DNA from: Flavobacterium cheniae
Lineage (GTDB): Bacteria > Bacteroidota > Bacteroidia > Flavobacteriales > Flavobacteriaceae
Assembly: GCF_004363695.1 (NCBI RefSeq)
Contig: NZ_SNZC01000003.1
Coordinates: 124,001-188,000 of the forward strand
DNA length: 64,000 nucleotides
Direction: 5' to 3'
In this document: in pieces, positions 1,955 through 49,555 of the stretch
Numbering within the stretch: the stretch's first letter is position 1
How the letters are laid out: every line of letters begins with the position of its first letter
The notes under the pieces: model-generated
What the model was told of the DNA's origin: nothing
The model's database searches: none
Seen by the model: the letters and a program-made list of their open reading frames with translations, nothing else
Program-made: the position numbers and the translations under genes

Positions 1955-2520
1955 AATATTGGTTATCAAAAAATTTAAAAAGTGTATTGGAATACGAAAA
2001 ACTTCCAGTACTAATTCAGCCATCAAGCAATATTGAAGTTGGTAAAGATACTTTTCACAATGGAAATTTTGAAATTAGAGGTTCTGGTAAAATTAAGATT
2101 GGTTCATTTTGCGCATTAGGTAGAGATGTAAAATTTATTACATCTAATCACGATTATAATTTTGCAGTAATGCAATATGGTTTTTACAAAAAATATTTTC
2201 AAGATAAACCCAAAAAAGCTAATCTTTATACAAACAAGTTTTCAATAGAAATTGGAAGTGATGTTTGGATTGGTGACAATGTAAGTGTTTTGCCAAATGT
2301 TAAAATTGGTCATGGCACTATAATTGGAACTGGAAGCGTAGTTACTAAAGATGTTGAACCTTACTCCATTATTGGAGGAGTTCCAGCAAAGTTTATAAAA
2401 AATAGATTTACAGAAGCTTCAAAAAAAATACTTCTAGCTTCAGAATGGTGGAATTGGGATGATGAAAAAATAAAAGTAAATAAAGATTTCTTCTTTAAAA
2501 ATTATAATGCTAATGAATAA
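1933..2520 (+). CDS. CatB-related (XAT-type) hexapeptide O-acetyltransferase
   Basis: A 195-residue left-handed beta-helix acyltransferase that probably adds acetyl groups from acetyl-CoA to a sugar. Hexapeptide turns run through about residues 35-155 (IEVGKDTF, IKIGSFCALG, IEIGSDVWIGD, VKIGHGTIIG). The SNHDYN segment carries a candidate catalytic histidine. The GGVPAKFIK motif and the C-terminal SEWWNWDDEKI segment are characteristic of the xenobiotic/CatB-type group. The gene overlaps wzt by 22 bases and the pyruvyltransferase by 14, so it belongs to the polysaccharide operon. Antibiotic acetylation is unlikely in this context; O-acetylation of the glycan is the inference. Confidence 0.85.
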   Translation: MGIKSKIKYWLSKNLKSVLEYEKLPVLIQPSSNIEVGKDTFHNGNFEIRGSGKIKIGSFCALGRDVKFITSNHDYNFAVMQYGFYKKYFQDKPKKANLYTNKFSIEIGSDVWIGDNVSVLPNVKIGHGTIIGTGSVVTKDVEPYSIIGGVPAKFIKNRFTEASKKILLASEWWNWDDEKIKVNKDFFFKNYNANE

Positions 2521-3328
2521 AATTCATGTTTATTGGTGGGCACTCAATGCGCAAGGAGAGATTGATAACTACGGAGATATTTTAGCTCCTTTTTTAGCTG
2601 AAAAATTATCTGGTAAAAAAGTGGTTAAAGTTTCGCATCCTATGCAACGCTGGTATAAATGGTTTATTAAGCATTATATAACTGTTGGAAGCATTATTTG
2701 TGCTGCCAGTAAAAACTCAATCGTTTGGGGAAGCGGTATTATTAAAAAAAATGAAAATGTAAGAGCAGCTAAATTTGTAGCTGTTAGAGGACCAAGAACT
2801 AGAAAGCGTTTATTAGAATTGGGCTATCAAGTTCCAGAAGTATATGGAGATCCTGCTCTTTTATTACCTAAATTCATCTCAAATGTAAAAGAGGAAAAAT
2901 ATGCTTTAGGAATTATTCCGCATTATGTTGATTATGATGCTATTGTTGCTCGATTTAAAGATGATACAACAATTAAAGTTATTAATTTAATGACTAATGA
3001 TGTTGTAAAAACAACTCAAGAAATACTAGAGTGTCAGCAAATTATTTCTTCTTCTTTACATGGTGTAATTGTATCTCATGCTTATGAAATACCGGCTTTA
3101 TGGGTTAAATTTTCAAATAAAGTATCTGGTGATAATGTCAAGTTTTATGACTATTTTGAATCATTAAATATTACTTATCACCAAGAGTTTTTCATTAACC
3201 CGTCTGAAAGTTCAATTGTTGATTTTGAAAAATTATTAAGTGAAAACACCTCTGTTTTATTACCTTCAAAAGATAAGTTAATTCAAACACAAGAAGCTTT
3301 ATTTGCTTCGTGTCCGTTTAAAAAATGA
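2507..3328 (+). CDS. Polysaccharide pyruvyltransferase family protein, copy 1
   Basis: A 273-residue member of the polysaccharide pyruvyltransferase family, which transfers the enolpyruvyl part of PEP to sugar hydroxyls to form ketal pyruvate, adding negative charge. Family features seen are the NYGD segment near residue 22, WGSGI near 77, VRGPRTR near 93, GDPALLLP near 117 and the SSSLHGVIVSHAY block near 185. It is clearly paralogous to the gene at 8726-9544, with matching motifs and length. Start codons at 2507 and 2513 are both possible; the first is used here. It overlaps the following glycosyltransferase by 4 bases (ATGA). Substrate is unknown. Confidence 0.88.
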   Translation: MLMNKIHVYWWALNAQGEIDNYGDILAPFLAEKLSGKKVVKVSHPMQRWYKWFIKHYITVGSIICAASKNSIVWGSGIIKKNENVRAAKFVAVRGPRTRKRLLELGYQVPEVYGDPALLLPKFISNVKEEKYALGIIPHYVDYDAIVARFKDDTTIKVINLMTNDVVKTTQEILECQQIISSSLHGVIVSHAYEIPALWVKFSNKVSGDNVKFYDYFESLNITYHQEFFINPSESSIVDFEKLLSENTSVLLPSKDKLIQTQEALFASCPFKK

Positions 3329-6554: not shown

Positions 6555-7712
6555 ATGAAAAAAGTTGCCATCATTCCACTTAGAAAAGGTTCTAAAGGAA
6601 TTCCAGGAAAAAATAAAAAGAAAATGTTAGGACGTCCTTTATTTTCATGGGTTTTAGGTGCCGCTATTTTTTCTGATTTGGACGAAGTTTATGTGTTTAC
6701 AGATGATGAGGAAATTTTAAACTTTATAAGTAAAGAATATCACTGGACAAGTAAAGTAAAAGGTTTGCTTCGCAATGATGAAAATGCGAATGATACCGCA
6801 TCTACAGAAAGTGCTATGTTAGAGTTTGCTGAAAAAATCAATCACGATTTTGATGTTTTATGTTTGTTGCAAGCTACGTCGCCTTTAACCACTTCACAAG
6901 ATATTAATAGTGCTTTATCTGAGATAAGTACCGAAGGAAAAACGGCTGCATTAAGTGTAGTAAAAACACATCGTTTTACTTGGAATGTAGATGGAACACC
7001 TCAAAATTATGATGTTTTTAATCGTCCAAGAAGACAAGATTTTGCAGGTTTATTGATGGAAAACGGAGCTGTTTATGCTACAACAAAAGACGCTTTCCTA
7101 AAAAGTAAAAACAGAGTTAGTGAAACCATAGGTTTGGTTGAAATGCCTGAGGAAACTTTAATGGAAATCGATAGCCTTTCCGATTGGACTATTATAGAAA
7201 GTTTACTAGCAGAACGCCAAAAAGCTTTTAAGAAACAAGAACGAATTAATTATTTAGTATTAGATGTTGATGGTGTTTTTACAGATGGATGTGTTTATTA
7301 CGGAGCAGAAGGCGAGTTGATGAAAAAGTTTGATATGCGTGACGGTATGGGATTAGAAATCTTAAGACAAAATAACGTTGAAGTTGTTGTAATCACTTCA
7401 GAAAACTCTGATTTAGTAGCGAAACGCATGCAGAAACTTCAAATAAAACATACCTTTTTAGGAGTAAAAGATAAGTATTCCTTTTTGCAAGATTTTATAA
7501 ATCAACAACAAACTTCATGGGCCAATTTGGCTTATGTAGGAGATGATGTAAATGACTTGGCTAATCTTTGCACAGTAGGTTGGTCGTTTGCTCCAGCTAA
7601 TGCTACGACAATTGTTAAGCAACAAGTAGATTTTACATTGTCAAATAATTCTGCAGATGGTGCTATCAGAGAAGTTTGTGAATGGATAATGAATTACAAT
7701 AAAAGATTTTAA
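6555..7712 (+). CDS. Acylneuraminate cytidylyltransferase fused to a KdsC-like HAD phosphatase
   Basis: A 385-residue two-domain protein. Residues 1-225 resemble CMP-sialic acid synthetases: LRKGSKGIPGKN at 9-20 (nucleotide loop), LLQATSPLT at 104-112 and a RRQDF block near 159. Residues 230-385 form a KDO-8-phosphate-phosphatase-like HAD domain with motif I DVDGVFTDG at 237-245, a threonine at 281, lysines near 305-307 and GDDVND at 329-334, so the catalytic residues look intact. Vertebrate CMAS has the same domain order. In a pathway sense it would dephosphorylate a nonulosonate-9-phosphate and activate the sugar with CTP. That order of reactions is inferred from the fusion. Confidence 0.88.
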   Translation: MKKVAIIPLRKGSKGIPGKNKKKMLGRPLFSWVLGAAIFSDLDEVYVFTDDEEILNFISKEYHWTSKVKGLLRNDENANDTASTESAMLEFAEKINHDFDVLCLLQATSPLTTSQDINSALSEISTEGKTAALSVVKTHRFTWNVDGTPQNYDVFNRPRRQDFAGLLMENGAVYATTKDAFLKSKNRVSETIGLVEMPEETLMEIDSLSDWTIIESLLAERQKAFKKQERINYLVLDVDGVFTDGCVYYGAEGELMKKFDMRDGMGLEILRQNNVEVVVITSENSDLVAKRMQKLQIKHTFLGVKDKYSFLQDFINQQQTSWANLAYVGDDVNDLANLCTVGWSFAPANATTIVKQQVDFTLSNNSADGAIREVCEWIMNYNKRF

Positions 7713-7838
7713 TGTTTTTTTTGGCTTGACTAATTTTTTAAATCATATGAAAATGTTATCGTTCATAAATAACTGAAGATTAACAGAGATTAGTTGTGAT
7801 TATTCGATAAAATTATTTTTCTTTGCCTTTCTAATAGA
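7713..7838. other. Spacer between the two nonulosonate genes
   Basis: This 126-base gap is the longest break in the plus-strand cluster between 662 and 24790, where other genes overlap or nearly touch. It is AT-rich and holds no ORF. A TTTCTTTGCC stretch near 7818 resembles the flavobacterial -7 element TAnnTTTG but lacks the A, and the nearest upstream TTG is about 21 bases away, so an internal promoter for the NeuB-like gene is possible but weakly supported. No hairpin terminator was seen. Confidence 0.4.
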
Positions 7839-8720
7839 ATGAAAATGACAGAATATAAAAAACCTTACGTAATTGCCGAAATTGGTTGTAACCATAAAGG
7901 TGAAATGGAAATCGCAAAAGAATTAATCAAAATAGCTAAAATATTTTGTAATGCGGATTCAGTAAAATTTCAGAAACGTAACAATAAAGAATTATTGACA
8001 GAAGATCAATACAATGCACCACACCCTAATCCTGCTAACTCTTATGGAGATACTTATGGTGCGCACAGAGAATATTTAGAATTTGATGTTAATCAACATG
8101 CTGAATTAAAAGCCTATTGTGAGGAAATGGGTATTGTGTATTCAACATCGGTTTGGGATACTACTTCTGCAAAAGAAATTGCATCTTTAAATCCAGAATA
8201 CATAAAAATTCCTTCTGCATGTAACAACAACTATGATATGTTAGGTTGGTTATGTGATAATTATAAAGGAGAAATTCACATTTCAACTGGTATGACTACT
8301 AAAGGAGAAGCTGATGATTTAGTTAATTTCTTCATTGAAAAGGGTAGAAACAAAGATTTAGTATTGTATAACTGTACTTCTGGATATCCAGTTCCATTTG
8401 AAGACGTTTGCTTATTAGATATCAATTTATTGATTGAAAAATATGGAGACAAAGTAAAACACATTGGTTTTTCTGGACATCATTTAGGAATTGCAGTAGA
8501 CGTTGCCGCTTATACTCTAGGGGCAAATGTTATTGAGCGTCATTATACAATTGATAGAACTTGGAAAGGTACTGATCATGCGGCATCTTTAGAGCCAGAA
8601 GGGTTACGTAAATTATGTCGTGATTTAAAAGCGGTAAGTAAAGCACTTAGTTTTAAAAGTCAAGATATTTTACCAATTGAGCAAGTACAACGCGATAAGT
8701 TGAAAAATAAAAAAGTATAA
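7839..8720 (+). CDS. NeuB-like nonulosonate synthase lacking the SAF domain
   Basis: A 293-residue TIM-barrel enzyme that condenses PEP with an N-acylhexosamine or hexose (or its 6-phosphate) to give a nine-carbon ulosonate. Family features are AEIGCNHKG at 13-21, VKFQKR near 42-47, STSVWD near 102-107, KIPS near 123, the FSGHH segment near 211-215 and ERHYTIDR at 233-240, whose histidines match the metal ligands of NeuB, plus TDHAASLEP at 245-253. Typical NeuB/NANS proteins are about 340-360 residues and end in an antifreeze-like SAF domain; this one stops shortly after the barrel. ATG at 7839 or 7845 could start it. Exact sugar is not known. Confidence 0.87.
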   Translation: MKMTEYKKPYVIAEIGCNHKGEMEIAKELIKIAKIFCNADSVKFQKRNNKELLTEDQYNAPHPNPANSYGDTYGAHREYLEFDVNQHAELKAYCEEMGIVYSTSVWDTTSAKEIASLNPEYIKIPSACNNNYDMLGWLCDNYKGEIHISTGMTTKGEADDLVNFFIEKGRNKDLVLYNCTSGYPVPFEDVCLLDINLLIEKYGDKVKHIGFSGHHLGIAVDVAAYTLGANVIERHYTIDRTWKGTDHAASLEPEGLRKLCRDLKAVSKALSFKSQDILPIEQVQRDKLKNKKV

Positions 8721-8725
8721 TTTTT

Positions 8726-9544
8726 ATGCTTAAAAATACCATCCGATTATTTTGGTGGAATGAAAAAATTATCCAAGGCAAATCCAAAGAAAATTATGGG
8801 GATGTCTTGGGTAAATTTTTAGTAGAAAAAATTTCGGGTAAAAAAGTGGTTTTTGCTTGGCCTAAAAAGTTTTCTTTTTTAGATTTTTTCTCACCCATTT
8901 ATGTAACTATTGGAAGCATTCTAGCTAATGTAAATCATAAATGTATCGTTTGGGGAAGTGGCATTATCAATAAGGAAATCAAAATTAAAAACGCTAAATT
9001 TTTAGCCGTTCGTGGCCCTCAAACCCGAAAATATTTAATGGATTTAGGTTATGAAGTGCCAGAAGTTTATGGCGATCCTGCTTTGTTATTGCCGCGTTAT
9101 TTTAATCCGAAAGTAGATAAGAAATATCAATATGGCATCGTTCCGCATTACAACGATTATAAAGTTGTGGAGAAGTGGTTTGAAAACAGATCGGATATCC
9201 ATTTAATAGATATGATGACCAATGATATCGAGTCTAAAACCATTGAATTTTTACAATGTGAAAGAATAATTTCTTCTTCCTTACACGGTGTAATTATTGC
9301 CCATGCATATGGAATTCCGGCTATTTGGCAAAAATTTTCAGACAAAGTTTTTGGTGATGACATCAAATATCAAGATTACATGGAATCGATTCAAATTCCA
9401 TTTTACCATCCCGAAATAAAAACAGAAGCCTACACTAATGATGAAATGACCAGCTTATTTCAACAATATGTTTCATTGCCAAATCCTCAAGTACTGGAAG
9501 ATTTAAGAAATGGATTAATGGAAGTTTGCCCTTTTAAAAATTGA
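8726..9544 (+). CDS. Polysaccharide pyruvyltransferase family protein, copy 2
   Basis: A 272-residue paralogue of the gene at 2507-3328. Shared motifs in the same order are NYGD, VWGSGIINK, AVRGPQTRK, VPEVYGDPALLLP, a MTND segment and SSSLHGVIIAHAYGIPA, and both end in a CPFK motif. It should transfer pyruvate from PEP to a sugar in the same glycan, probably on a different residue or position from copy 1. It sits 5 bases after the NeuB-like gene and 1 base before the next gene, inside the operon. Duplication followed by divergence is the simplest explanation; which acceptors differ is not visible. Confidence 0.87.
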   Translation: MLKNTIRLFWWNEKIIQGKSKENYGDVLGKFLVEKISGKKVVFAWPKKFSFLDFFSPIYVTIGSILANVNHKCIVWGSGIINKEIKIKNAKFLAVRGPQTRKYLMDLGYEVPEVYGDPALLLPRYFNPKVDKKYQYGIVPHYNDYKVVEKWFENRSDIHLIDMMTNDIESKTIEFLQCERIISSSLHGVIIAHAYGIPAIWQKFSDKVFGDDIKYQDYMESIQIPFYHPEIKTEAYTNDEMTSLFQQYVSLPNPQVLEDLRNGLMEVCPFKN

Positions 9545-9545
9545 T

Positions 9546-11021
9546 ATGAATAGCATCAGTTCCCAAGACGAAATTAAAAAAGTAATTCTTCATATTGAAG
9601 AAAAATGGCCAGTTGAAAAATGGGAAGTAAATCATATCAAAATATGGCCTTATCTCCGAATTAAACTTTACATTCATCTTTTAATGATGATGAATAAAAA
9701 GCTAGAAAAGGATGAAACAACTTCCGATGTTAAGCACACTTCTAGTTCAAAAAAAACCATATTTTCTAAACTCTTTCTAATTTTTTCTTCTTTTTTTAAG
9801 TTGAATTTTTTCTTTTTCAGTTTAAAAAAGAAGCCTCATTTGTTGTTTGGTTCACACATTCATAGGGTAAAGCAAAACGGACTTTATTTTAATCGATTTT
9901 ATGATTCTTTAGTGGATATTCACCATCTTAAAAATGAGGTTTATAATGTAGAGTATCAAAAAGTTTATCCTAATACTTTTAATAAAGAAGCGGTTATTTC
10001 TTTAGAACAAGAAGTAAGAAATTATAAGAATTTATTAAATTTTAAAGAAAAGTTTACGTCTAAAAACGATAGTGTTTCTTTAGAAAATTATGATGATTTT
10101 TATGCCTATTTAAAGCAATTACCTATCCGATTGGATTTGTTGCGATTCTCCGTTCAAGATTTGAAAAATTGGTCTAGAAGAGTTATTGCTTTGCAACCTT
10201 TCTTTAGAAGATTTTATAAGAAGACACAACCTAAAACATTAGTTTTTTTAGGCTTCTATGGTTATGACGATTTGTATGCGGCTCTTTTAACGGCAAATCA
10301 AATGGGAATAAAAACGGTTGATTTTCAGCACGGTCCGCAAACGAATATTCACATGGTTTTTTCAGCATGGACTAAATTCCCATCAGATGGATATGCTTTA
10401 TTGCCTAAAGAATTTTGGAATTGGGATGAATTTTCAAAAATAAATATTGAAAAATGGTGTCATAAAAATAATAGTATAGCAAAAGTGGTGGGACAGCCTT
10501 TTGTTAATTATTGGTTGAAGCATAATCATTTTGAAAGAAGCGAGAGCAATACAATTATTTACAGTTTGCAAACATTTCCTTTTGAAATTCAAGATATGTT
10601 GACTCCTAAAGTTATTCAATTAATTAAGGATTTACCCTATCAATGGATATTGCGTTTGCATCCCAGAAATTACATTGAAATTGAAGAAATAAAGGCGTTT
10701 TTAATTCAACATCAAATTGAAGATAAAGCAATCATACAAAGTTCTATTGATGAAATGCCTTTGCCAAAAGCATTACTTTCCTCAATTGTTCATATAACTA
10801 ATTTTTCAGGTTGTTTAATTGAAGCTCATTTGTTAGGTGTTCCAACTATATTGATTAATAACATTGGCAAAGAAATGTTTTCTCAATATATTGATGATGA
10901 AAAAGTTTTTTATTTAAATCAGGAAGATGATGATTTTTGCTTTAATTTTTCAACATTAACAAAATATATAAAACCATCAAATAGCAAATTAATTTCAGAA
11001 CATGGAAATCCTTTCAAATAA
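9546..11021 (+). CDS. Putative GT-B-like glycosyltransferase of unassigned family
   Basis: A 491-residue protein I cannot place in a named family. The first 100 residues contain a basic, hydrophobic stretch (about 70-95, rich in F and K) that may associate with the membrane. The second half looks like a GT-B donor domain: VDFQHGPQTNIH at 258-269, VVGQPFV near 314-320, WILRLHPRN near 367-375 and NFSGCLIEAHLLGVPTILI near 419-437. HG, HP and S/T-rich motifs of this kind occur in capsule Kdo transferases and bacterial sialyltransferases, so it is a candidate nonulosonate transferase, by analogy and position only. It overlaps the methyltransferase gene by 20 bases. Confidence 0.6.
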   Translation: MNSISSQDEIKKVILHIEEKWPVEKWEVNHIKIWPYLRIKLYIHLLMMMNKKLEKDETTSDVKHTSSSKKTIFSKLFLIFSSFFKLNFFFFSLKKKPHLLFGSHIHRVKQNGLYFNRFYDSLVDIHHLKNEVYNVEYQKVYPNTFNKEAVISLEQEVRNYKNLLNFKEKFTSKNDSVSLENYDDFYAYLKQLPIRLDLLRFSVQDLKNWSRRVIALQPFFRRFYKKTQPKTLVFLGFYGYDDLYAALLTANQMGIKTVDFQHGPQTNIHMVFSAWTKFPSDGYALLPKEFWNWDEFSKINIEKWCHKNNSIAKVVGQPFVNYWLKHNHFERSESNTIIYSLQTFPFEIQDMLTPKVIQLIKDLPYQWILRLHPRNYIEIEEIKAFLIQHQIEDKAIIQSSIDEMPLPKALLSSIVHITNFSGCLIEAHLLGVPTILINNIGKEMFSQYIDDEKVFYLNQEDDDFCFNFSTLTKYIKPSNSKLISEHGNPFK

Positions 11022-12067: not shown

Positions 12068-13465
12068 ATGAGTAAAAAAGCCTTTATTTTTTTACCTGAC
12101 GGTGTAGGTTTGCGTAATTTCGCTTTAACCAATTTTAATGCTATTGGTACAACTTTAGGATATGAAATGGTGTATTGGAATAATACGCCTTTTAAAATAA
12201 AAGAAGAATTAGGATATGATGAAGTAAATATTACAAATCATCAATTACATCCTTGGACAACGGTATATACTCGTGCTAGAAAGCGTTGTGAGTTAAACGT
12301 TTTCGATAAAAAATTCAAGGAAACGGTTTATAATACCTATAATTTTCCGCAATCTTACAAGGGAATAAAAAATATTATTAAAAGTTTAAATGTCGATTTT
12401 TTAGTAGCTACAAAATCTACTGAAAAAGGAGTAGAGAGCATTCGAACTAAAATTAAAAAGTTAGAAAGAAGTACCTCTAAATATGAGTATTGTAAAAAGC
12501 AATTACTAGAGCACAAACCCGATATTGTTTTTTGTACGAATCCTCGACCAACTCAAGCTATTGCGCCTATTTTGGCTGCTCAAGATTTAGGAATTCCTAC
12601 GGCTTCCTTTATTTTTTCATGGGATAATTTACCTAAAGCTACCACGCTAATTGAACCCGATTTTTATTTTGTGTGGAGCGATTATATGAAAAAAGAATTG
12701 CTTCAATATTGTCCGTATGTACAACCAGAGCAAGTTTTTGTTACAGGAACACCACAATTTGAAAGCCATTTCGATACGAGTTTATTGCAATCAAAAGAAG
12801 ATTTTTATAAGTCACACCATTTAGATTTAGAAAAAAAATACATTTGTTTTTCGGGAGATGATATTGTAACATCACCTTTAGATCAATATTATTTAGAAGA
12901 TTTAGCGATTTCAGTTCGTGAATTAAACCAACAAGGATATAACTTGGGCATTATTTACAGAAAATGTCCTGTAGATTTTACGAATCGATACGATGCTGTC
13001 TTACAACAATATCAGGATGTTATTGTTTCTATTGATCCCTTATGGCGACCAGTAGGCACGAGTTGGAACGAAATTATGCCAACCAAAGAAGATTTTGCTC
13101 TACAATCTAATATTTGTGAGCATACTGAATTCGTTGGAAATATTGCCTCTTCAATGGTCTTCGATTTTGTGGCACATGATAAATCGTGTTTGTTTTTTGA
13201 TTACGAACAACCGCAATTACAAAAAGGAATTCGCGATATCGGACAAAATTACAGGTACATTCATTTTCGTTCGATGCCAAATAAAGAAGCGGCCTTGTTT
13301 GTTTATGATAAAAAAGAACTAACTTCTATTGTAAAAGCTATTTTAGACGGAAAGCAATCCAATGTTCCAGTCGGGAAAAAATGGTTTGATGTAGTAGTAG
13401 GAATGGAGCCAACAAAAGCTTCAGAGAATATTTGGGAAGGCATTAATAGTATTGTAAAAAAATAG
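12068..13465 (+). CDS. Putative GT-B-like glycosyltransferase, family unassigned
   Basis: A 465-residue soluble protein. It begins with a Rossmann-like strand (KAFIFLPDGVGLRNFALTN). A central segment has PDIVFCTNPRPTQAIAPILAA (shortened here to its key part, near 156-176) followed by SFIFSWDNLPKATT, and then a VTGTPQFE turn near 225-232 that resembles the linker region of GT-B enzymes. No signal peptide or membrane segment is seen. The position between a methyltransferase and an MBOAT acylase, with 1-base gaps on both sides, supports a role in assembly of the same glycan. I do not recognise a specific family; a phosphoglycerol-type transferase is an alternative. Confidence 0.55.
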   Translation: MSKKAFIFLPDGVGLRNFALTNFNAIGTTLGYEMVYWNNTPFKIKEELGYDEVNITNHQLHPWTTVYTRARKRCELNVFDKKFKETVYNTYNFPQSYKGIKNIIKSLNVDFLVATKSTEKGVESIRTKIKKLERSTSKYEYCKKQLLEHKPDIVFCTNPRPTQAIAPILAAQDLGIPTASFIFSWDNLPKATTLIEPDFYFVWSDYMKKELLQYCPYVQPEQVFVTGTPQFESHFDTSLLQSKEDFYKSHHLDLEKKYICFSGDDIVTSPLDQYYLEDLAISVRELNQQGYNLGIIYRKCPVDFTNRYDAVLQQYQDVIVSIDPLWRPVGTSWNEIMPTKEDFALQSNICEHTEFVGNIASSMVFDFVAHDKSCLFFDYEQPQLQKGIRDIGQNYRYIHFRSMPNKEAALFVYDKKELTSIVKAILDGKQSNVPVGKKWFDVVVGMEPTKASENIWEGINSIVKK

Positions 13466-13466
13466 T

Positions 13467-14900
13467 ATGTTTTTCAACTCCTTATCCTTTGCCATTTTTT
13501 TACCCATCGTATTTTTACTGTATTGGTTAGTATTTAATAAAAATAAAACTACTCAAAATGCGGTATTGATTATAGCGAGTTATTATTTTTACTCGTGTTG
13601 GGATTGGCGATTTTTGTTTTTATTGGTGTTTTCTACTTTGCTGGATTACTTCAGCGCTATTATGATGGAAAACAGCACTTCGGATAAAAAACGCAAGTTG
13701 TGGTTGTGGTTAACTATTGGGATTAACTTAGGATTTTTAGGCGTTTTTAAATACTACGATTTTTTTGCGCAATCTTTTGCCGATTTGTTAAACGGTTTCG
13801 GATTTCAAACGAATCCAGTTTTATTGAAATTAATTCTTCCTGTTGGAATATCCTTTTATACATTTCATGGTTTGTCATATGTAATTGATATTTATTACAA
13901 ACGCATCACAGCTGAGCTTAATTTTATTGATTATTCTTTATTCGTAAGTTACTTTCCACTTTTGGTTGCTGGACCTATTGAAAGAGCCACACATTTATTA
14001 CCACAAGTAAAAATCAAACGCCATTTTAATTTTGAAAAAGCGAAAGAAGGCGTTTATCAAATCATTTGGGGATTGGTTAAAAAAGTAGTAATTGCAGACA
14101 GTTGCGCCACTTATGCCAATGCAGTTTTTGACAACTACGAATCTATGAATTCGTTGTCGTTAATTTTAGGAGCTATTTACTTTGCCTTCCAAATTTATGG
14201 TGATTTCTCAGGGTATTCCGATATTGCATTAGGAACCTCTAAATTATTCGGAATCGATTTATTAAAGAATTTCAATTATCCTTATTTTTCCAGAGACATT
14301 GCCGAGTTTTGGCGTCGTTGGCACATTTCGTTATCATCATGGTTCCGCGATTATTTATACATTCCTTTAGGAGGAAGTCAAGGGGGTATGTGGATGAAAG
14401 TTAGAAATACATTCATCATTTTCCTAGTGAGCGGATTCTGGCATGGAGCCAATTGGACGTTTATTATTTGGGGCTTATTGAATGCAATTTATTTCTTGCC
14501 TTTGTTATTGCAAAATAAGAATCGTTCCAATATGGGCGAAATTGAAATGGGTTGGAATATAAGCAGTGTAAAAACCATTTTGAATATTTTAGGTACTTTT
14601 GCTTTAACTACAATTGCGTGGATTTTCTTTAGAGCAAAATCAATGACTGAAGCTGTCGGATATATCCAAAAAATGGTGACCGATTTCCATTTTGATTCGC
14701 AATATTTGAGTAACGAACGTTATAATTTTGAATTACTATTTTTGGTAATGATTTTTGTATTTGTTGAATGGTTCAATCGTACTAAAGTAGAGCCTTTATC
14801 AGGAAAAGCAAGTTGGATAAAAGTAACCTTAGCGATTATGGCTTTATTAGCTTTAGGCGTGTATTCCGATTATAAAGAATTTATTTATTTCCAATTCTAA
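13467..14900 (+). CDS. MBOAT family membrane O-acyltransferase, copy 1 (AlgI/DltB-like)
   Basis: A 477-residue polytopic inner-membrane protein of the AlgI/DltB type, which passes an acyl group (often acetyl) from the cytoplasm to a periplasmic acceptor. The MBOAT core is plain: YGDFSGYSDIALG near 244-256, FWRRWHISLSSWFRDYLYIP near 281-300 and SGFWHGANW at 322-330 with the catalytic histidine at 326. It aligns without gaps through residue 330 with the second MBOAT at 15782-17209. Its stop overlaps the start of the SGNH partner (TAATG). In known systems MBOAT plus a periplasmic SGNH-like partner completes the transfer; that partner role is inferred here. Confidence 0.92.
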   Translation: MFFNSLSFAIFLPIVFLLYWLVFNKNKTTQNAVLIIASYYFYSCWDWRFLFLLVFSTLLDYFSAIMMENSTSDKKRKLWLWLTIGINLGFLGVFKYYDFFAQSFADLLNGFGFQTNPVLLKLILPVGISFYTFHGLSYVIDIYYKRITAELNFIDYSLFVSYFPLLVAGPIERATHLLPQVKIKRHFNFEKAKEGVYQIIWGLVKKVVIADSCATYANAVFDNYESMNSLSLILGAIYFAFQIYGDFSGYSDIALGTSKLFGIDLLKNFNYPYFSRDIAEFWRRWHISLSSWFRDYLYIPLGGSQGGMWMKVRNTFIIFLVSGFWHGANWTFIIWGLLNAIYFLPLLLQNKNRSNMGEIEMGWNISSVKTILNILGTFALTTIAWIFFRAKSMTEAVGYIQKMVTDFHFDSQYLSNERYNFELLFLVMIFVFVEWFNRTKVEPLSGKASWIKVTLAIMALLALGVYSDYKEFIYFQF

Positions 14901-15778
14901 TGAAACAGTTTTTTGTCTTTGTCGGAAAAATTTTGTTGGTGCTTTTGCTCTCCGCTTTTGCATTAGATTTCATTTATACCACTGTTTTTGCACAATCGGA
15001 AACTCGAAATAAAGTAGAAAATGTTATCAATTCGAAACCTCAAAATTATGATGTTATTATTTTAGGAACTTCAAGAGCGAATAACCATTTTGTGTCGGAG
15101 TTGTTTGAAAAAGAAGGGTTGAAAACTTTTAATTTCGGAATGAGTGGTGCACATTTGTTTGAAACTTCTTTGCTACTAAAATTAATGATAGAGCGCGGTT
15201 GGGAAATAAAAAACGTCATTGTAGAAACGGATTTAAATCTGTCCAACGAAAAACGTGATGATGGTACTTTTGGACGTTTCATGCCGTTTATGCATCAATC
15301 GAATACTATTGCAGAACATTTTAAAAACGAACCCGATTTTACCGAATTGTATTATGTGCCGTTTTATCGTTACATACAATTTGATGCTAAAGTAGGTTTT
15401 AGAGCTTGGTGTAAAACCTTGGTAAACGAACCGACCAATACCTTGGCAAATAATGGGTATTATCCGCTTGGATATAATCCTAAAGCCAACATGAAGAACA
15501 ATATTGAAAGTTTAGTGCCTTTACGTAATCGTTATTTCGAAGAAATTAAGCAAATTTGTAATGCTAATAATGTCAATTTGATAGCAGTAACGACTCCTAT
15601 GTGTTCGAATGTAAAAGGAATGGAATATTTTAAAAAAGTGAAAGCTTTGTATCCTGAAATTAAAGAGTATGAACATGTAGTAGATGGAGATCAATACTTT
15701 TCTTCATGCGGACATTTGAATGATAAAGGCGCTAGGTTATACACCACTAAAATTATTGAAGACTTATTTAAAAAATAG
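14900..15778 (+). CDS. Membrane-anchored SGNH/DltD/AlgJ-like acyl-transfer partner, copy 1
   Basis: A 292-residue protein with one N-terminal membrane segment (about 6-27) and a periplasmic domain. It carries an SGNH-like first block LGTSRANNHF with a candidate nucleophile serine at 58. In the C-terminal block the usual D-x-x-H is S-C-G-H (S269, H272), so the aspartate is replaced in this copy, although HLND follows as expected. It is translationally coupled to the upstream MBOAT and is 3 bases from the second MBOAT. It probably hands an acyl group to the glycan, but with the altered triad it might be a weak or non-catalytic partner. Confidence 0.75.
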   Translation: MKQFFVFVGKILLVLLLSAFALDFIYTTVFAQSETRNKVENVINSKPQNYDVIILGTSRANNHFVSELFEKEGLKTFNFGMSGAHLFETSLLLKLMIERGWEIKNVIVETDLNLSNEKRDDGTFGRFMPFMHQSNTIAEHFKNEPDFTELYYVPFYRYIQFDAKVGFRAWCKTLVNEPTNTLANNGYYPLGYNPKANMKNNIESLVPLRNRYFEEIKQICNANNVNLIAVTTPMCSNVKGMEYFKKVKALYPEIKEYEHVVDGDQYFSSCGHLNDKGARLYTTKIIEDLFKK

Positions 15779-15781
15779 TAA

Positions 15782-17209
15782 ATGCTTTTTAACTCGATAG
15801 AATTTTTACTTTTTCTGCCTACTGTTTTTTTCTTGTATTGGTTTGTATTTAAAAACCAACTACGAGCACAAAATGTATTGTTGTTGGTAGCCAGTTATAT
15901 TTTCTATGGTTGGTGGGATTGGCGTTTTTTATCCTTAATTATCGCCAGTACTTTTTTAGATTATTTTATTGCTATACAATTAGGAAAAACATCCATTTCC
16001 AAAAAACGAAAATTACTTTTAGGAATTAGTTTAGTGGGGAATCTGGGGATGTTAGGTTTCTTTAAATATTACAATTTTTTCGTGGCAAGTTGGATAGAAG
16101 CTTGGTCAAGTGTTGGAATTACAATGGAAGCCAGTACATTAAATATTATACTTCCAGTAGGAATTTCGTTTTATACGTTCCAAACCTTGAGTTACACCAT
16201 TGATGTATACCGAAAGGAAATGAAACCTACAAAAAGTTTTATCGATTTTGCCGCTTTCGTAACTTTTTTTCCACAATTAGTAGCGGGTCCAATTGAAAGA
16301 GCTTCTCATTTATTACCTCAGTTTTATAAAAACCGAACATTTGAGTATCAAAATGCGGTGGACGGTGTCAAATTGATTATTTGGGGAATGTTTAAAAAAG
16401 TGGTGGTTGCGGATAACTGTGCTTTTTTTGTAAACAAGATTTTTGAAAGTCCTGAAACGTATTCTAGTGGCGAATTGTTCGTTGGAATGGTTTTCTTCGC
16501 TTTCCAAATTTATGGTGACTTCTCAGGATATTCAGACATTGCTATAGGTTTATCTAAACTTTTTGGGTTTGATTTAATGGTAAATTTCAAGTTTCCGTAT
16601 TTCTCAAGAGATATTGCAGAATTTTGGCGTCGTTGGCACATTTCATTATCTACATGGTTTCGCGATTATATTTATATTCCGCTTGGCGGTTCAAAAGGTT
16701 CACAATGGTTTCAAATTAGAAACGTTATGATTATCTTTTTGGTAAGTGGTTTTTGGCATGGCGCCAATTGGACCTATGTAGTTTGGGGTTTATTTCATGC
16801 TTTGATGTTTTTACCATTATTACTATTCAACATAAATAGAAGTCATTTGATTACCAAATCCTATGGTTGGCTCGATTTTGCTAAAATAGGGGTAACCTTT
16901 TTAGTGGTTTGTATCGGTTGGGTCTTTTTTAGAGCGGATTCAATTACAGATGCTTTTCAATATTTAGCTCATATGTTAGAATTGAAAAATTTAGGATTGA
17001 CCTTATTCTATAAAACCAATGCGAATTTGATGATTTTTGGTTTAAGTGTTTTGGCTGTCGGAATTTTATCTATGCAAGAATTAGTTTGGGTTATCAAAAA
17101 AAGAGAATTACCTAAAATCTCTGCTTTTGGGGCTTTACTTTTAGTGTTGTTAATTTTCTTTATGGGAAGTTTTAAAAATCAAATGGACTTTATTTATTTC
17201 CAATTCTAA
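15782..17209 (+). CDS. MBOAT family membrane O-acyltransferase, copy 2
   Basis: A 475-residue paralogue of the MBOAT at 13467. The same motifs fall at the same residue numbers: VAGPIERA near 167-174, YGDFSGYSDIA near 244-254, FWRRWHISLS at 281-290 and SGFWHGANW with H326. The C-terminal part differs more, ending in a long hydrophobic region. It starts 3 bases after the first SGNH gene and its stop overlaps the second SGNH start (TAATG). The unit MBOAT-SGNH is thus repeated head to tail. The two copies may transfer different acyl groups or act on different sugars. Confidence 0.92.
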   Translation: MLFNSIEFLLFLPTVFFLYWFVFKNQLRAQNVLLLVASYIFYGWWDWRFLSLIIASTFLDYFIAIQLGKTSISKKRKLLLGISLVGNLGMLGFFKYYNFFVASWIEAWSSVGITMEASTLNIILPVGISFYTFQTLSYTIDVYRKEMKPTKSFIDFAAFVTFFPQLVAGPIERASHLLPQFYKNRTFEYQNAVDGVKLIIWGMFKKVVVADNCAFFVNKIFESPETYSSGELFVGMVFFAFQIYGDFSGYSDIAIGLSKLFGFDLMVNFKFPYFSRDIAEFWRRWHISLSTWFRDYIYIPLGGSKGSQWFQIRNVMIIFLVSGFWHGANWTYVVWGLFHALMFLPLLLFNINRSHLITKSYGWLDFAKIGVTFLVVCIGWVFFRADSITDAFQYLAHMLELKNLGLTLFYKTNANLMIFGLSVLAVGILSMQELVWVIKKRELPKISAFGALLLVLLIFFMGSFKNQMDFIYFQF

Positions 17210-18090
17210 TGAAGAAGTTTCTAACCAAAATAGCCATTTATACGTTTTTCATTCTTTTGATTGGAAACGGAATTGCTTATTTATCTCTATATGTTTTAGG
17301 GAAGTCGCAATTGTATAAAAATCAGTTTGTAAAAAATGGTGTCAAAGAAACTCATTTTGATTATGTGGTTTTAGGTTCTAGTACCGGATTAACTACATTA
17401 GATACGAAGTTGATTGATAAAATTTTAAATACTTCTGGTTTAAATATTAGTATGGACGATACTTCTTTAAGTTCGCATTATTTGATGTTGCAATATTTCC
17501 TTTCTTTAGGAAAATCTATAGATCAATTGATTTTATGTGTTACTCCGAGTGATTTACAAAATCCGGTAAACGAATTAAATAATAACGATTATCGTTTTTT
17601 AACGGAAGTTCAAGATACTTTGATTTATAATTATTATAATCGAATGGAGCATGGAGGATTGAAAGTACTTACTTATTCTAAGTTCATGCCTATTTTAGGA
17701 GTGAGCTATTATAATAATGAATTGTTTTATCCTTCAATGTATGCCTTTTTAAAACCTACAAAAAGAAATAGATTTGATGATAAAGGAAATTACACGTATC
17801 CACAAATTGAAAATCGTATAGAAAAAGGAATTGTTACTAATATTGAAACAAGTTATTTAAATCCATCATTTTTAAAGATTAAAAAGCTATGCAAACAAAA
17901 AGCTATTGATTTAATTGTGTATCAATCTCCTATTCATAGAAAAAATGTCGTTTTTCCGAACACTGACCAATTTAAAATAATTAATCATTCCAGAATTTTA
18001 CCAGAAGATTTGTTCTTCGATAACATTCACGTAAATAGTAAAGGAAGAACTTTTTGTACTTTAGCCTTTTGTAAAGAATTAAGTAAATAA
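17209..18090 (+). CDS. Membrane-anchored SGNH-like acyl-transfer partner, copy 2
   Basis: A 293-residue protein with an N-terminal membrane segment (about 7-30) and a periplasmic SGNH-like domain. The first block LGSSTGLTTLD places a serine at 58, at the same position as in copy 1. The C-terminal block FFDNIHVN has the canonical D271-x-x-H274, unlike copy 1. Overall similarity to copy 1 outside these blocks is low, so the pair has diverged strongly while the MBOAT copies have not. It follows its MBOAT by a 1-base overlap and precedes a GT4 gene by 2 bases. Function as acyl-transfer partner is inferred from the pairing. Confidence 0.75.
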   Translation: MKKFLTKIAIYTFFILLIGNGIAYLSLYVLGKSQLYKNQFVKNGVKETHFDYVVLGSSTGLTTLDTKLIDKILNTSGLNISMDDTSLSSHYLMLQYFLSLGKSIDQLILCVTPSDLQNPVNELNNNDYRFLTEVQDTLIYNYYNRMEHGGLKVLTYSKFMPILGVSYYNNELFYPSMYAFLKPTKRNRFDDKGNYTYPQIENRIEKGIVTNIETSYLNPSFLKIKKLCKQKAIDLIVYQSPIHRKNVVFPNTDQFKIINHSRILPEDLFFDNIHVNSKGRTFCTLAFCKELSK

Positions 18091-48515: not shown

Positions 48516-48595
48516 AATATTTTTTCACAAAGTAAGACTTCCAATTTCTGTAATTCGTTAGAATTTTTTGCATCTTTGTACTTCACTATTTGACT

Positions 48596-49555
48596 ATGAA
48601 GTTTTATCCTTTAACCTTTACACCGATACTTAAAGACCGCATTTGGGGCGGTACGAAGTTGAAAACCTATCTCAACAAACCTATAGTTTCTGAAACTACT
48701 GGCGAGAGTTGGGAGATCTCAACCGTGCCTGGCGACATTAGTGTGGTTGCTACTGGTGTTTTGAAAGGAAAGAATATCAACGAAATTATTGATTTATATC
48801 CTGAAGAAATTTTAGGAAAATCGGTCATTGCTCGTTTTGGAAAACAATTCCCATTGCTTTTTAAATTTATAGATGCCAAGGAAGATTTATCTATTCAATT
48901 GCATCCGAATGATGATTTAGCTAAAGAACGCCATAATTCTTTCGGGAAAACCGAAATGTGGTATGTAATGCAAGCAGATGAATCGGCTCGTTTGGTGGTT
49001 GGGTTTAAGAAAGATTCTAATCAAGAAGAATACTTAGCACATTTAGAAAATAAAAATTTAGTGGCTTTATTGAATGAATCTCCAGTAAAAAAAGGCGATG
49101 TTTTCTTTTTAGAAACTGGCACTATTCATGCCATTGGAGCTGGGGTTGTGGTAGCAGAAATTCAACAAACAAGTGATGTTACTTACCGAATTTACGATTG
49201 GGATAGAGTAGATGCTAACGGAAACGGTAGAGAATTACATACCGAATTAGCTTTGGATGCAATTAATTATAACGCAACTGATTCTAAAATAACATATAAG
49301 GAAGAGGCTAATCAAAGTACTTTGGTGGTAGATTGTCCTTATTTTATCACTAATATTATCGCGTTACAAGATCGTTTTATTTGGAAACGAAAGAAACAAG
49401 CTTTCACCGTTTTTATGTGTACCAATGGACAATTTGAAATGGTAATGAATGGCGAAATCTTACGATACCGAATGGGAGATACAATTTTGATTCCGGCATG
49501 TATTGAGAATTTAACCATTAAAGGAAAGGCTACATTGTTAGAAATTTCCATATAA
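48596..49555 (+). CDS. manA: Mannose-6-phosphate isomerase, class I
   Basis: A 319-residue cupin enzyme interconverting fructose-6-phosphate and mannose-6-phosphate, the entry to GDP-mannose-type donors. Zinc ligands lie in QLHPNDD (H103), GKTEMWYV (E120) and TGTIHAIGAG (near H177). RIWGGTKL near 15-22 and WEISTVPG near 39-46 are family motifs. The TTG at 48590 is less likely than the ATG at 48596. Besides supplying the polysaccharide cluster with mannose derivatives, it would also make mannose-6-phosphate for a KDN-type nonulosonate route, but that is inference. Confidence 0.92.
   Translation: MKFYPLTFTPILKDRIWGGTKLKTYLNKPIVSETTGESWEISTVPGDISVVATGVLKGKNINEIIDLYPEEILGKSVIARFGKQFPLLFKFIDAKEDLSIQLHPNDDLAKERHNSFGKTEMWYVMQADESARLVVGFKKDSNQEEYLAHLENKNLVALLNESPVKKGDVFFLETGTIHAIGAGVVVAEIQQTSDVTYRIYDWDRVDANGNGRELHTELALDAINYNATDSKITYKEEANQSTLVVDCPYFITNIIALQDRFIWKRKKQAFTVFMCTNGQFEMVMNGEILRYRMGDTILIPACIENLTIKGKATLLEISI

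Follow-up and report, generated by a model that had tools for sequence, protein, structure and literature searches.

Flavobacterium cheniae carries, in a 64,000-nucleotide stretch of contig NZ_SNZC01000003.1 (positions 124,001 to 188,000 of the forward strand; the whole stretch is called the window and its own numbering is used below), two adjacent genes that raise the question of which nonulosonate they make and whether its synthesis passes through a 9-phosphate. The first (6555-7712) encodes a cytidylyltransferase fused to a phosphatase domain of the haloacid dehalogenase (HAD) type, and the second a NeuB-family synthase. Very probably, judging from sequence, these genes are dedicated steps in the synthesis of cytidine monophosphate (CMP)-activated 2-keto-3-deoxynononic acid (KDN), leading from mannose-6-phosphate (Man-6-P) and phosphoenolpyruvate through KDN-9-phosphate (KDN-9-P) and free KDN to CMP-KDN. 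Domains, intact catalytic residues, substrate-selective residues, linkage and the lack of the searched families in the genome are observed in the sequences. Substrate, reactions and product use are predicted as follows. A phosphomannose isomerase encoded elsewhere in the window would convert fructose-6-phosphate into Man-6-P, and the synthase would use this with phosphoenolpyruvate to form KDN-9-P. The C-terminal HAD domain of the fusion would remove the 9-phosphate via Asp237/Asp239 and a divalent metal, and the N-terminal domain would activate free KDN with CTP. The resulting CMP-KDN would then serve a glycosyltransferase of the surrounding surface-polysaccharide cluster.

The first-pass annotation of this DNA had proposed a cytidylyltransferase-HAD fusion beside a NeuB-family synthase, and Pfam and TIGR01670 agree with it on both genes. 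The 385-residue product of the first open reading frame (ORF) matches CTP_transf_3 (PF02348) at residues 4-178 (69.2 bits, cut-off 22.6) and a KdsC-subfamily HAD at residues 232-382 (TIGR01670, 132.8 bits, cut-off 106.95); that of the second matches NeuB (PF03102) with 227 bits (cut-off 22.1). Flavobacterium fragile, F. aquaticum and a Flavobacterium metagenome-assembled genome (MAG) encode proteins with 95-96% identity to the fusion. A C-terminal SAF domain is typical of the NeuB_NnaB family; the 293-residue synthase has no Pfam match to SAF (PF08666), and its alignment to Neisseria meningitidis NeuB stops at residue 285 of 349 of the latter. It reaches 203.8 bits against TIGR03569 (NeuB_NnaB) and 141.8 bits against TIGR03586 (PseI), under the respective cut-offs of 399.65 and 340.25, and is 28-30% identical to catalytic fragments of N. 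meningitidis NeuB and of a Leptospira enzyme. Its identity to fusion-linked synthases of Lachnospiraceae (L148), Ca. Methanoperedens (L157) and the Bacteroidota genome L172 is 66-71%.

The assignment of the HAD domain depends on two sets of residues. The earlier statement that the domain keeps its catalytic residues (DVDGVFTDG, GDDVND) holds: D10, D12, T54, K80 and D103 of the Bacteroides thetaiotaomicron KDN-9-P phosphatase (3e81) align with D237, D239, T281, K307 and D330 of the fusion, all invariant in 36 aligned fusions. Equally invariant there is the pair E283/K294, which corresponds to Glu56/Lys67 of 3e81; exactly these two residues were mutated by the depositors of 4hgq and 4hgr in the B. 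thetaiotaomicron phosphatase (PDB titles, mutant sequences). The catalytic set, with Thr or Ser at position 54, is present in all 169 HADs of a wider comparison, which excludes the window's HAD (aligned separately to 3e81). In this comparison all 102 other fused HADs (96 distinct) and all 24 stand-alone HADs next to a NeuB gene (23 distinct) have the Glu/Lys pair, and none of the 27 stand-alone HADs of the bacterial family without NeuB in the stretch has it. Among the latter is the host's own KdsC, with Gly/Asn rather than Glu/Lys at the two selectivity positions. The 102 fused HADs come from 24 stretches of the first sets, 77 named records and L172, some genomes being counted under two records; HADs shorter than 120 residues or below 30 bits were dropped, as were L150, L156 and L159 (frame lost, GC-rich DNA) and L083 (no ORF). 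With intact catalytic residues and the Glu/Lys pair, the domain is predicted to be a KDN-9-P phosphatase.

The cytidylyltransferase domain points to the same sugar. Its best solved relative is 9t4z, 'PpNeuA CMP-Kdn synthetase' (159.9 bits), followed by murine CMAS (93.1 bits), two bacterial synthetases for CMP-N-acetylneuraminic acid (Neu5Ac; 59.1 and 50.8 bits) and a CMP-pseudaminic acid (CMP-Pse) synthetase (42.1 bits). The modelled domain superposes on 9t4z, the nearest solved structure, with a Z score of 29.4 and a root-mean-square deviation (rmsd) of 1.3 over 216 residues at 44% identity. From the protein name PpNeuA, we infer that 9t4z is the CMP-Kdn synthetase of Prymnesium parvum. According to a study of this alga, that enzyme does not convert Neu5Ac, and for the Kdn-9-P synthetase Man-6-P was the sole substrate among seven sugars (PMC6200933). 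The same study describes the P. parvum CMP-Kdn synthetase as a protein of 273 residues with a putative C-terminal transmembrane segment, and states that a KDN-9-P phosphatase homologue was not found in the transcriptome (PMC6200933). By this relationship, the first domain of the fusion is predicted to be a CMP-KDN synthetase.

The synthase carries a motif that keeps company with the Glu/Lys pair. The pattern [TS]YG.H[RK] occurs in 111 of 163 distinct NeuB proteins (the window's excluded), of which 109 have a Glu/Lys HAD in the same stretch, and a related form, [TS]Y..[HY][RK], in 15, of which 12 do. Neither form is present in the other 37; 34 of these are without a Glu/Lys HAD in the stretch, and the other three are each an additional NeuB gene in a stretch where a motif-bearing one is also present. 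Kinship among the NeuB proteins is uncorrected, so these counts are not independent cases. Viewed from the fusion, seven of the 102 fused loci are without a NeuB ORF in the stretch and 94 have a TYG.H[RK]-bearing NeuB. The pattern is common to the fusion-linked and the long SAF-bearing types of synthase; a third, short type has the second form. Human NANS, as we take it, shares the TYGxH[RK] and TWKGxDHxASLEP stretches with the synthase. The TYGxH[RK] stretch may bind the 6-phosphate of the substrate. Catalytic residues, Glu/Lys pair and synthase motif all argue for the earlier proposal of a 9-phosphorylated synthase product and of its dephosphorylation by the fused HAD.

Two other kinds of NeuB were seen alongside. 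The third synthase type (L241-L243, L245-L252, L071, L076, L077), mostly of about 290-310 residues and with a [TS]Y..Y[RK] motif, is often, in other families of Bacteroidota, the neighbour of a Glu/Lys HAD that stands alone, and may represent another 9-phosphate route. A second, different NeuB with a DKTRFDYW motif lies near the KDN pair in Salegentibacter (L139, 12455-13152; L141, 1142-2137) and in L051 (15014-16012), which suggests two nonulosonates in one cluster.

The sugar phosphate available to the synthase was judged from the whole host genome (2.74 Mb, 18 contigs, 99.98% complete). The first-pass annotation had seen no NeuC-type epimerase in the window and had suggested a genome-wide search for epimerases and kinases. 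PF02350 (Epimerase_2, NeuC/GNE) has 0 matches genome-wide, with 11 of 14 control genomes positive; likewise lacking from the genome are GlcNAc 2-epimerase (PF07221; 2 of 14 controls positive), true NanE (8 of 14) and ROK kinase (PF00480; 12 of 14), other kinase families not having been searched. The single sub-threshold NanE match is an IMP dehydrogenase and was rejected. A type I phosphomannose isomerase is present as the sole PF20511 match genome-wide, 40 kb from the pair and outside the cluster. Moreover, a gene with CBS and MannoseP_isomer domains, of the cupin type, lies between synthase and fusion in three of seven Lachnospiraceae-titled loci (L148, 5208-5963; L155, 5232-5987; L165, 5233-5988), recognised by Pfam in the first and by similarity in the other two. 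A stand-alone 119-residue domain of the same isomerase kind was also seen in L169, about 6 kb from the synthase. Because of the enzymes found, a KDN route can be drawn for this genome; a Neu5Ac route cannot be drawn with the enzyme families searched. Sampled NeuB loci follow a similar division: among 34 without a Glu/Lys HAD, the NeuC match is strong in 14 and weak in 1, and among 127 with a Glu/Lys HAD it is weak in 8. The NeuC profile comprises four sequences from loci without a Glu/Lys HAD and so leans to those, and the stretches are of unequal length. The sugar, for which the earlier suggestion was that it could be KDN-like, can be narrowed to KDN itself as the likely product by the resemblance to 9t4z, the lack of the four searched families that would supply N-acetylmannosamine (ManNAc) or ManNAc-6-phosphate (ManNAc-6-P), and the isomerase-domain gene in three operons.

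The same evidence bears on a vertebrate-like route, in which the synthase would take ManNAc-6-P to give Neu5Ac-9-phosphate and the fusion would make CMP-Neu5Ac. Vertebrate CMAS has the same domain order, murine CMAS ranks second among the solved relatives of the first domain, and the synthase is 39% identical to the human NANS sequence used. This route is nevertheless improbable: the first domain is far nearer to the CMP-Kdn synthetase, the isomerase-domain gene lies inside three related operons, and the nearly complete genome is without a NeuC/GNE-type epimerase, GlcNAc 2-epimerase, true NanE or ROK kinase, although a ManNAc-6-P source of another family is possible.

Several observations weigh against the assignment to KDN. 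The synthase is just 32-38% identical to five long SAF-bearing synthases of the B. thetaiotaomicron-like type (SAF itself verified in L173 and L057), and only three of the seven Lachnospiraceae loci have the isomerase-domain gene. The Glu/Lys pair is not exclusive: of 43 HADs with no NeuB in the stretch (27 from the bacterial family and 16 from a phylum scan), eight have it, and some of the eight look like ordinary housekeeping genes by their neighbours. All eight, with flanks of at most 1.5 kb, belong to the phylum sample, which was chosen for resemblance to the KDN-9-P phosphatase profile (among the 30 best scorers) and is thus biased. The HAD domain scores 140.9 bits against the NCBIfam KDN-9-P phosphatase model NF058599 (cut-off 180) and 139.5 bits against the KdsC equivalog NF007019 (cut-off 208), so that profile scores do not tell the two functions apart; being under the NF058599 cut-off, the domain is classed in subfamily TIGR01670, with a predicted function like that of a KDN-9-P phosphatase. 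In favour of KDN, by contrast, that cut-off is exceeded in 10 of 395 phylum genomes, two of which, G383 (192.7 bits) and G364 (182 bits), have the same fusion beside the same short synthase. The structural comparison with KdsC that had been suggested earlier bears out the fold and goes no further: in the AlphaFold2 model of the fusion (mean pLDDT 92.6) the HAD domain matches 3e81 (Z 25.4, rmsd 1.3) and Escherichia coli YrbI (Z 25.9, rmsd 1.6) alike, so that the fold cannot choose between KDN-9-P and the 8-phosphate of 3-deoxy-D-manno-octulosonic acid (Kdo-8-P). A rooted tree of 114 HADs, the window's included, assigns the latter to a clade with 83 members (support 0.77), made up of 76 of the 77 Glu/Lys proteins, including 3e81, and seven Asp/Arg ones; the 27 KdsC-type HADs of the family lie outside it in a clade of their own (support 1.0). 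The support of 0.77 is modest, and one fused HAD falls outside the Glu/Lys clade. A tree of 113 sequences without the window's HAD leaves the deep branches unresolved and does not separate Glu/Lys proteins from KdsC; given this difference, the trees lend weak support.

The distance of the synthase from the B. thetaiotaomicron-like type, together with its lack of SAF, would also accord with another hexose-6-phosphate as substrate, giving a stereoisomer or derivative of KDN that is activated likewise. There is little probability in this, since the HAD selectivity residues and the CMP-transferring domain both indicate KDN and the isomerase-domain gene is present in three operons.

Distribution and natural variants throw light on the role of the HAD domain. 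Of 299 genomes sampled from the family, 45 have the full-length fusion, taken as a match over both domains; the remainder of the 149 matching genomes have one domain only. The synthase (E <= 1e-60) is found in 47, namely the same 45 plus G025 and G187, an association far beyond chance; G127, the sole other genome of the same genus in the draw, has neither. G025 encodes the synthase, a divergent cytidylyltransferase and a Glu/Lys HAD in three separate genes, all within a span of 5 kb. The synthase of G187 adjoins a free-standing cytidylyltransferase, and the 19-kb stretch contains no HAD. In G087, an intact HAD-less cytidylyltransferase lies beside the synthase, and a fusion elsewhere has lost the RPRRQD of its cytidylyltransferase domain and kept the HAD intact, an arrangement expected if both activities are needed. 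The scan of named genomes gave at least 80 loci, first in Flavobacteriaceae, then in Cyclobacteriaceae, Bacteroidales, Lachnospiraceae and other Clostridia, as well as in Planctomycetes, Myxococcota, Gammaproteobacteria, a Euryarchaeota MAG and Ca. Methanoperedens. Counts of named loci refer to the best 80 by the query profile; metagenome bins make up many of the distant records.

The HAD of vertebrate CMAS has lost its activity and serves tetramerisation, and the likeness in domain order pointed out in the first-pass annotation is real. By analogy, the domain might be purely structural and the synthase might make the free acid; the C-terminal domain of murine CMAS has the same fold (3ewi, Z 25.4), and G187 manages with synthase and cytidylyltransferase in a 19-kb stretch without HAD. 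Such a role is very unlikely, as all catalytic residues and the Glu/Lys pair are kept in every one of the fused HADs compared, G025 has its Glu/Lys HAD as a gene of its own within the cluster, and the HAD of the G087 fusion is intact next to a degenerated partner domain. A part for the fusion in Kdo synthesis, as a KdsB-KdsC-like protein, is suggested by the KdsC model score and is scarcely credible, because the neighbour is of the NeuB family, the host KdsC differs at both selectivity positions, and the genome has this separate KdsC and a second CTP_transf_3 protein, which presumably serve Kdo.

The module belongs to a known pathway and is no new kind of system. Daughtry et al., in Biochemistry in 2013, reportedly described orthologues of the KDN-9-P phosphatase (KDN9PP) standing alone or fused to the transferase of the pathway, with the Glu/Lys pair marking the lineage; the fusion of the window fits that description, and nothing basic differs. 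The same three reactions are predicted as in the KDN pathway of B. thetaiotaomicron (3e81/4hgo phosphatase), with the HAD catalytic residues and Glu56/Lys67 shared. In the B. thetaiotaomicron-like locus L056/L173, whose HAD is very close to 3e81 and which stands in here for the B. thetaiotaomicron operon, the three activities are encoded by separate genes and the synthase bears SAF; in the window, by contrast, a single protein combines transferase and phosphatase, and the synthase, 36% identical to that of the locus, is without SAF. Compared with vertebrate CMAS and NANS, the HAD of the window keeps its catalytic and selectivity residues, and there is no ManNAc-6-P supply among the families searched. 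With the bacterial NeuB/NeuC routes to Neu5Ac and legionaminate, the module has a NeuB-family condensing enzyme in common, whereas the host genome is without a PF02350 match. Among the matches listed in a literature search, mainly outside subscription journals, no title concerned this fusion. Added here are the association with a synthase that lacks SAF, the motif of the synthase and a conserved neighbour of the GT-B fold.

Of 58 named Bacteroidota loci, 43 have this neighbour, a protein of 465 residues, no more than 2.4 kb downstream of the synthase; in an earlier set, which overlaps with these loci and counts the window, it is found close to the pair in 16 of 21 loci. It also follows the synthase in G087 and is absent from the 13 long-synthase loci L174-L186. 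Its model (pLDDT 87.9) adopts a GT-B fold, which best matches a non-hydrolysing UDP-GlcNAc 2-epimerase (Z 23.7) and then glycosyltransferases (Z 19-21). An hhalign comparison with 14 NeuC-type sequences gave a probability of 91% over 207 columns; there is no PF02350 match at E 0.001. The possibility of a hidden NeuC was considered and rejected, the GDRFE motif being replaced, HGGE falling in a gap and Epimerase_2 being absent in Pfam; GDRFE and HGGE are presumably the catalytic motifs of NeuC. No sialyltransferase is among its best 50 fold matches, and the GT-B fold is compatible with one. The protein is read as glycosyltransferase-like and not as an epimerase. Linkage makes it, speculatively, the foremost candidate in this analysis for a CMP-KDN-using enzyme.

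It is possible, if rather doubtful, that SAF-less synthase and fusion form a broad KDN cassette of environmental bacteria and some archaea, with the 465-residue neighbour as a CMP-KDN transferase founding a new glycosyltransferase family for KDN on flavobacterial surface polysaccharides. More generally, the analysis offers a sequence rule for KDN producers (a Glu/Lys pair in the HAD, TYGxH[RK] in the synthase and no NeuC nearby). By the fusion, 45 of the 299 sampled family genomes would be predicted KDN makers, and the cassette extends to Lachnospiraceae and Archaea. KDN would thereby turn from a curiosity of B. thetaiotaomicron into a common envelope sugar, and the 465-residue protein is named as a candidate KDN transferase.

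Table 1. Coordinates of the predicted KDN module and of associated features (window numbering, except in the last row, which refers to two other loci).
Feature	Coordinates	Strand	Remarks
Cytidylyltransferase domain of fusion, residues 1-222	6555..7220	+	predicted CMP-KDN synthetase; PF02348, 9t4z relative
HAD phosphatase domain of fusion, residues 227-383	7233..7703	+	predicted KDN-9-phosphate phosphatase; TIGR01670, Glu283/Lys294
NeuB-family synthase, 293 aa, without SAF	7839..8720	+	predicted KDN-9-phosphate synthase; PF03102
TYGAHREYLEF motif of synthase, residues 72-82	8052..8084	+	[TS]YG.H[RK] pattern
465-aa GT-B protein, conserved neighbour	12068..13465	+	speculative candidate CMP-KDN transferase; linkage and fold
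Type I phosphomannose isomerase	48590..49555	+	presumed Man-6-P source; PF20511 53.1 bits, PF21621 35.1 bits
Split activities of G087	L052 8834-9961 and L170 7980-8663		HAD-less cytidylyltransferase versus degenerate fusion

Both genes of the pair lie within a long plus-strand run (10-24790) that starts, by eye, with an ABC exporter and contains, by Pfam, glycosyltransferases, two pyruvyltransferase-family proteins and one methyltransferase. The two polysaccharide pyruvyltransferase-family proteins (PF04230) are encoded at 2507-3328 and 8726-9544, the latter directly after the synthase, and the family is present in 9 of the 21 loci (window counted). A protein of 491 residues (9546-11021), which matches nothing in Pfam or NCBIfam at E 0.001, is possibly a GT-B transferase by eye and was seen in 4 of the 21 loci (window counted) and 10 of the 58 named ones. 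Further downstream (13467-18090) are two tandem pairs, each consisting, by eye, of an apparent membrane-bound O-acyltransferase followed by an AlgJ/SGNH-like protein.

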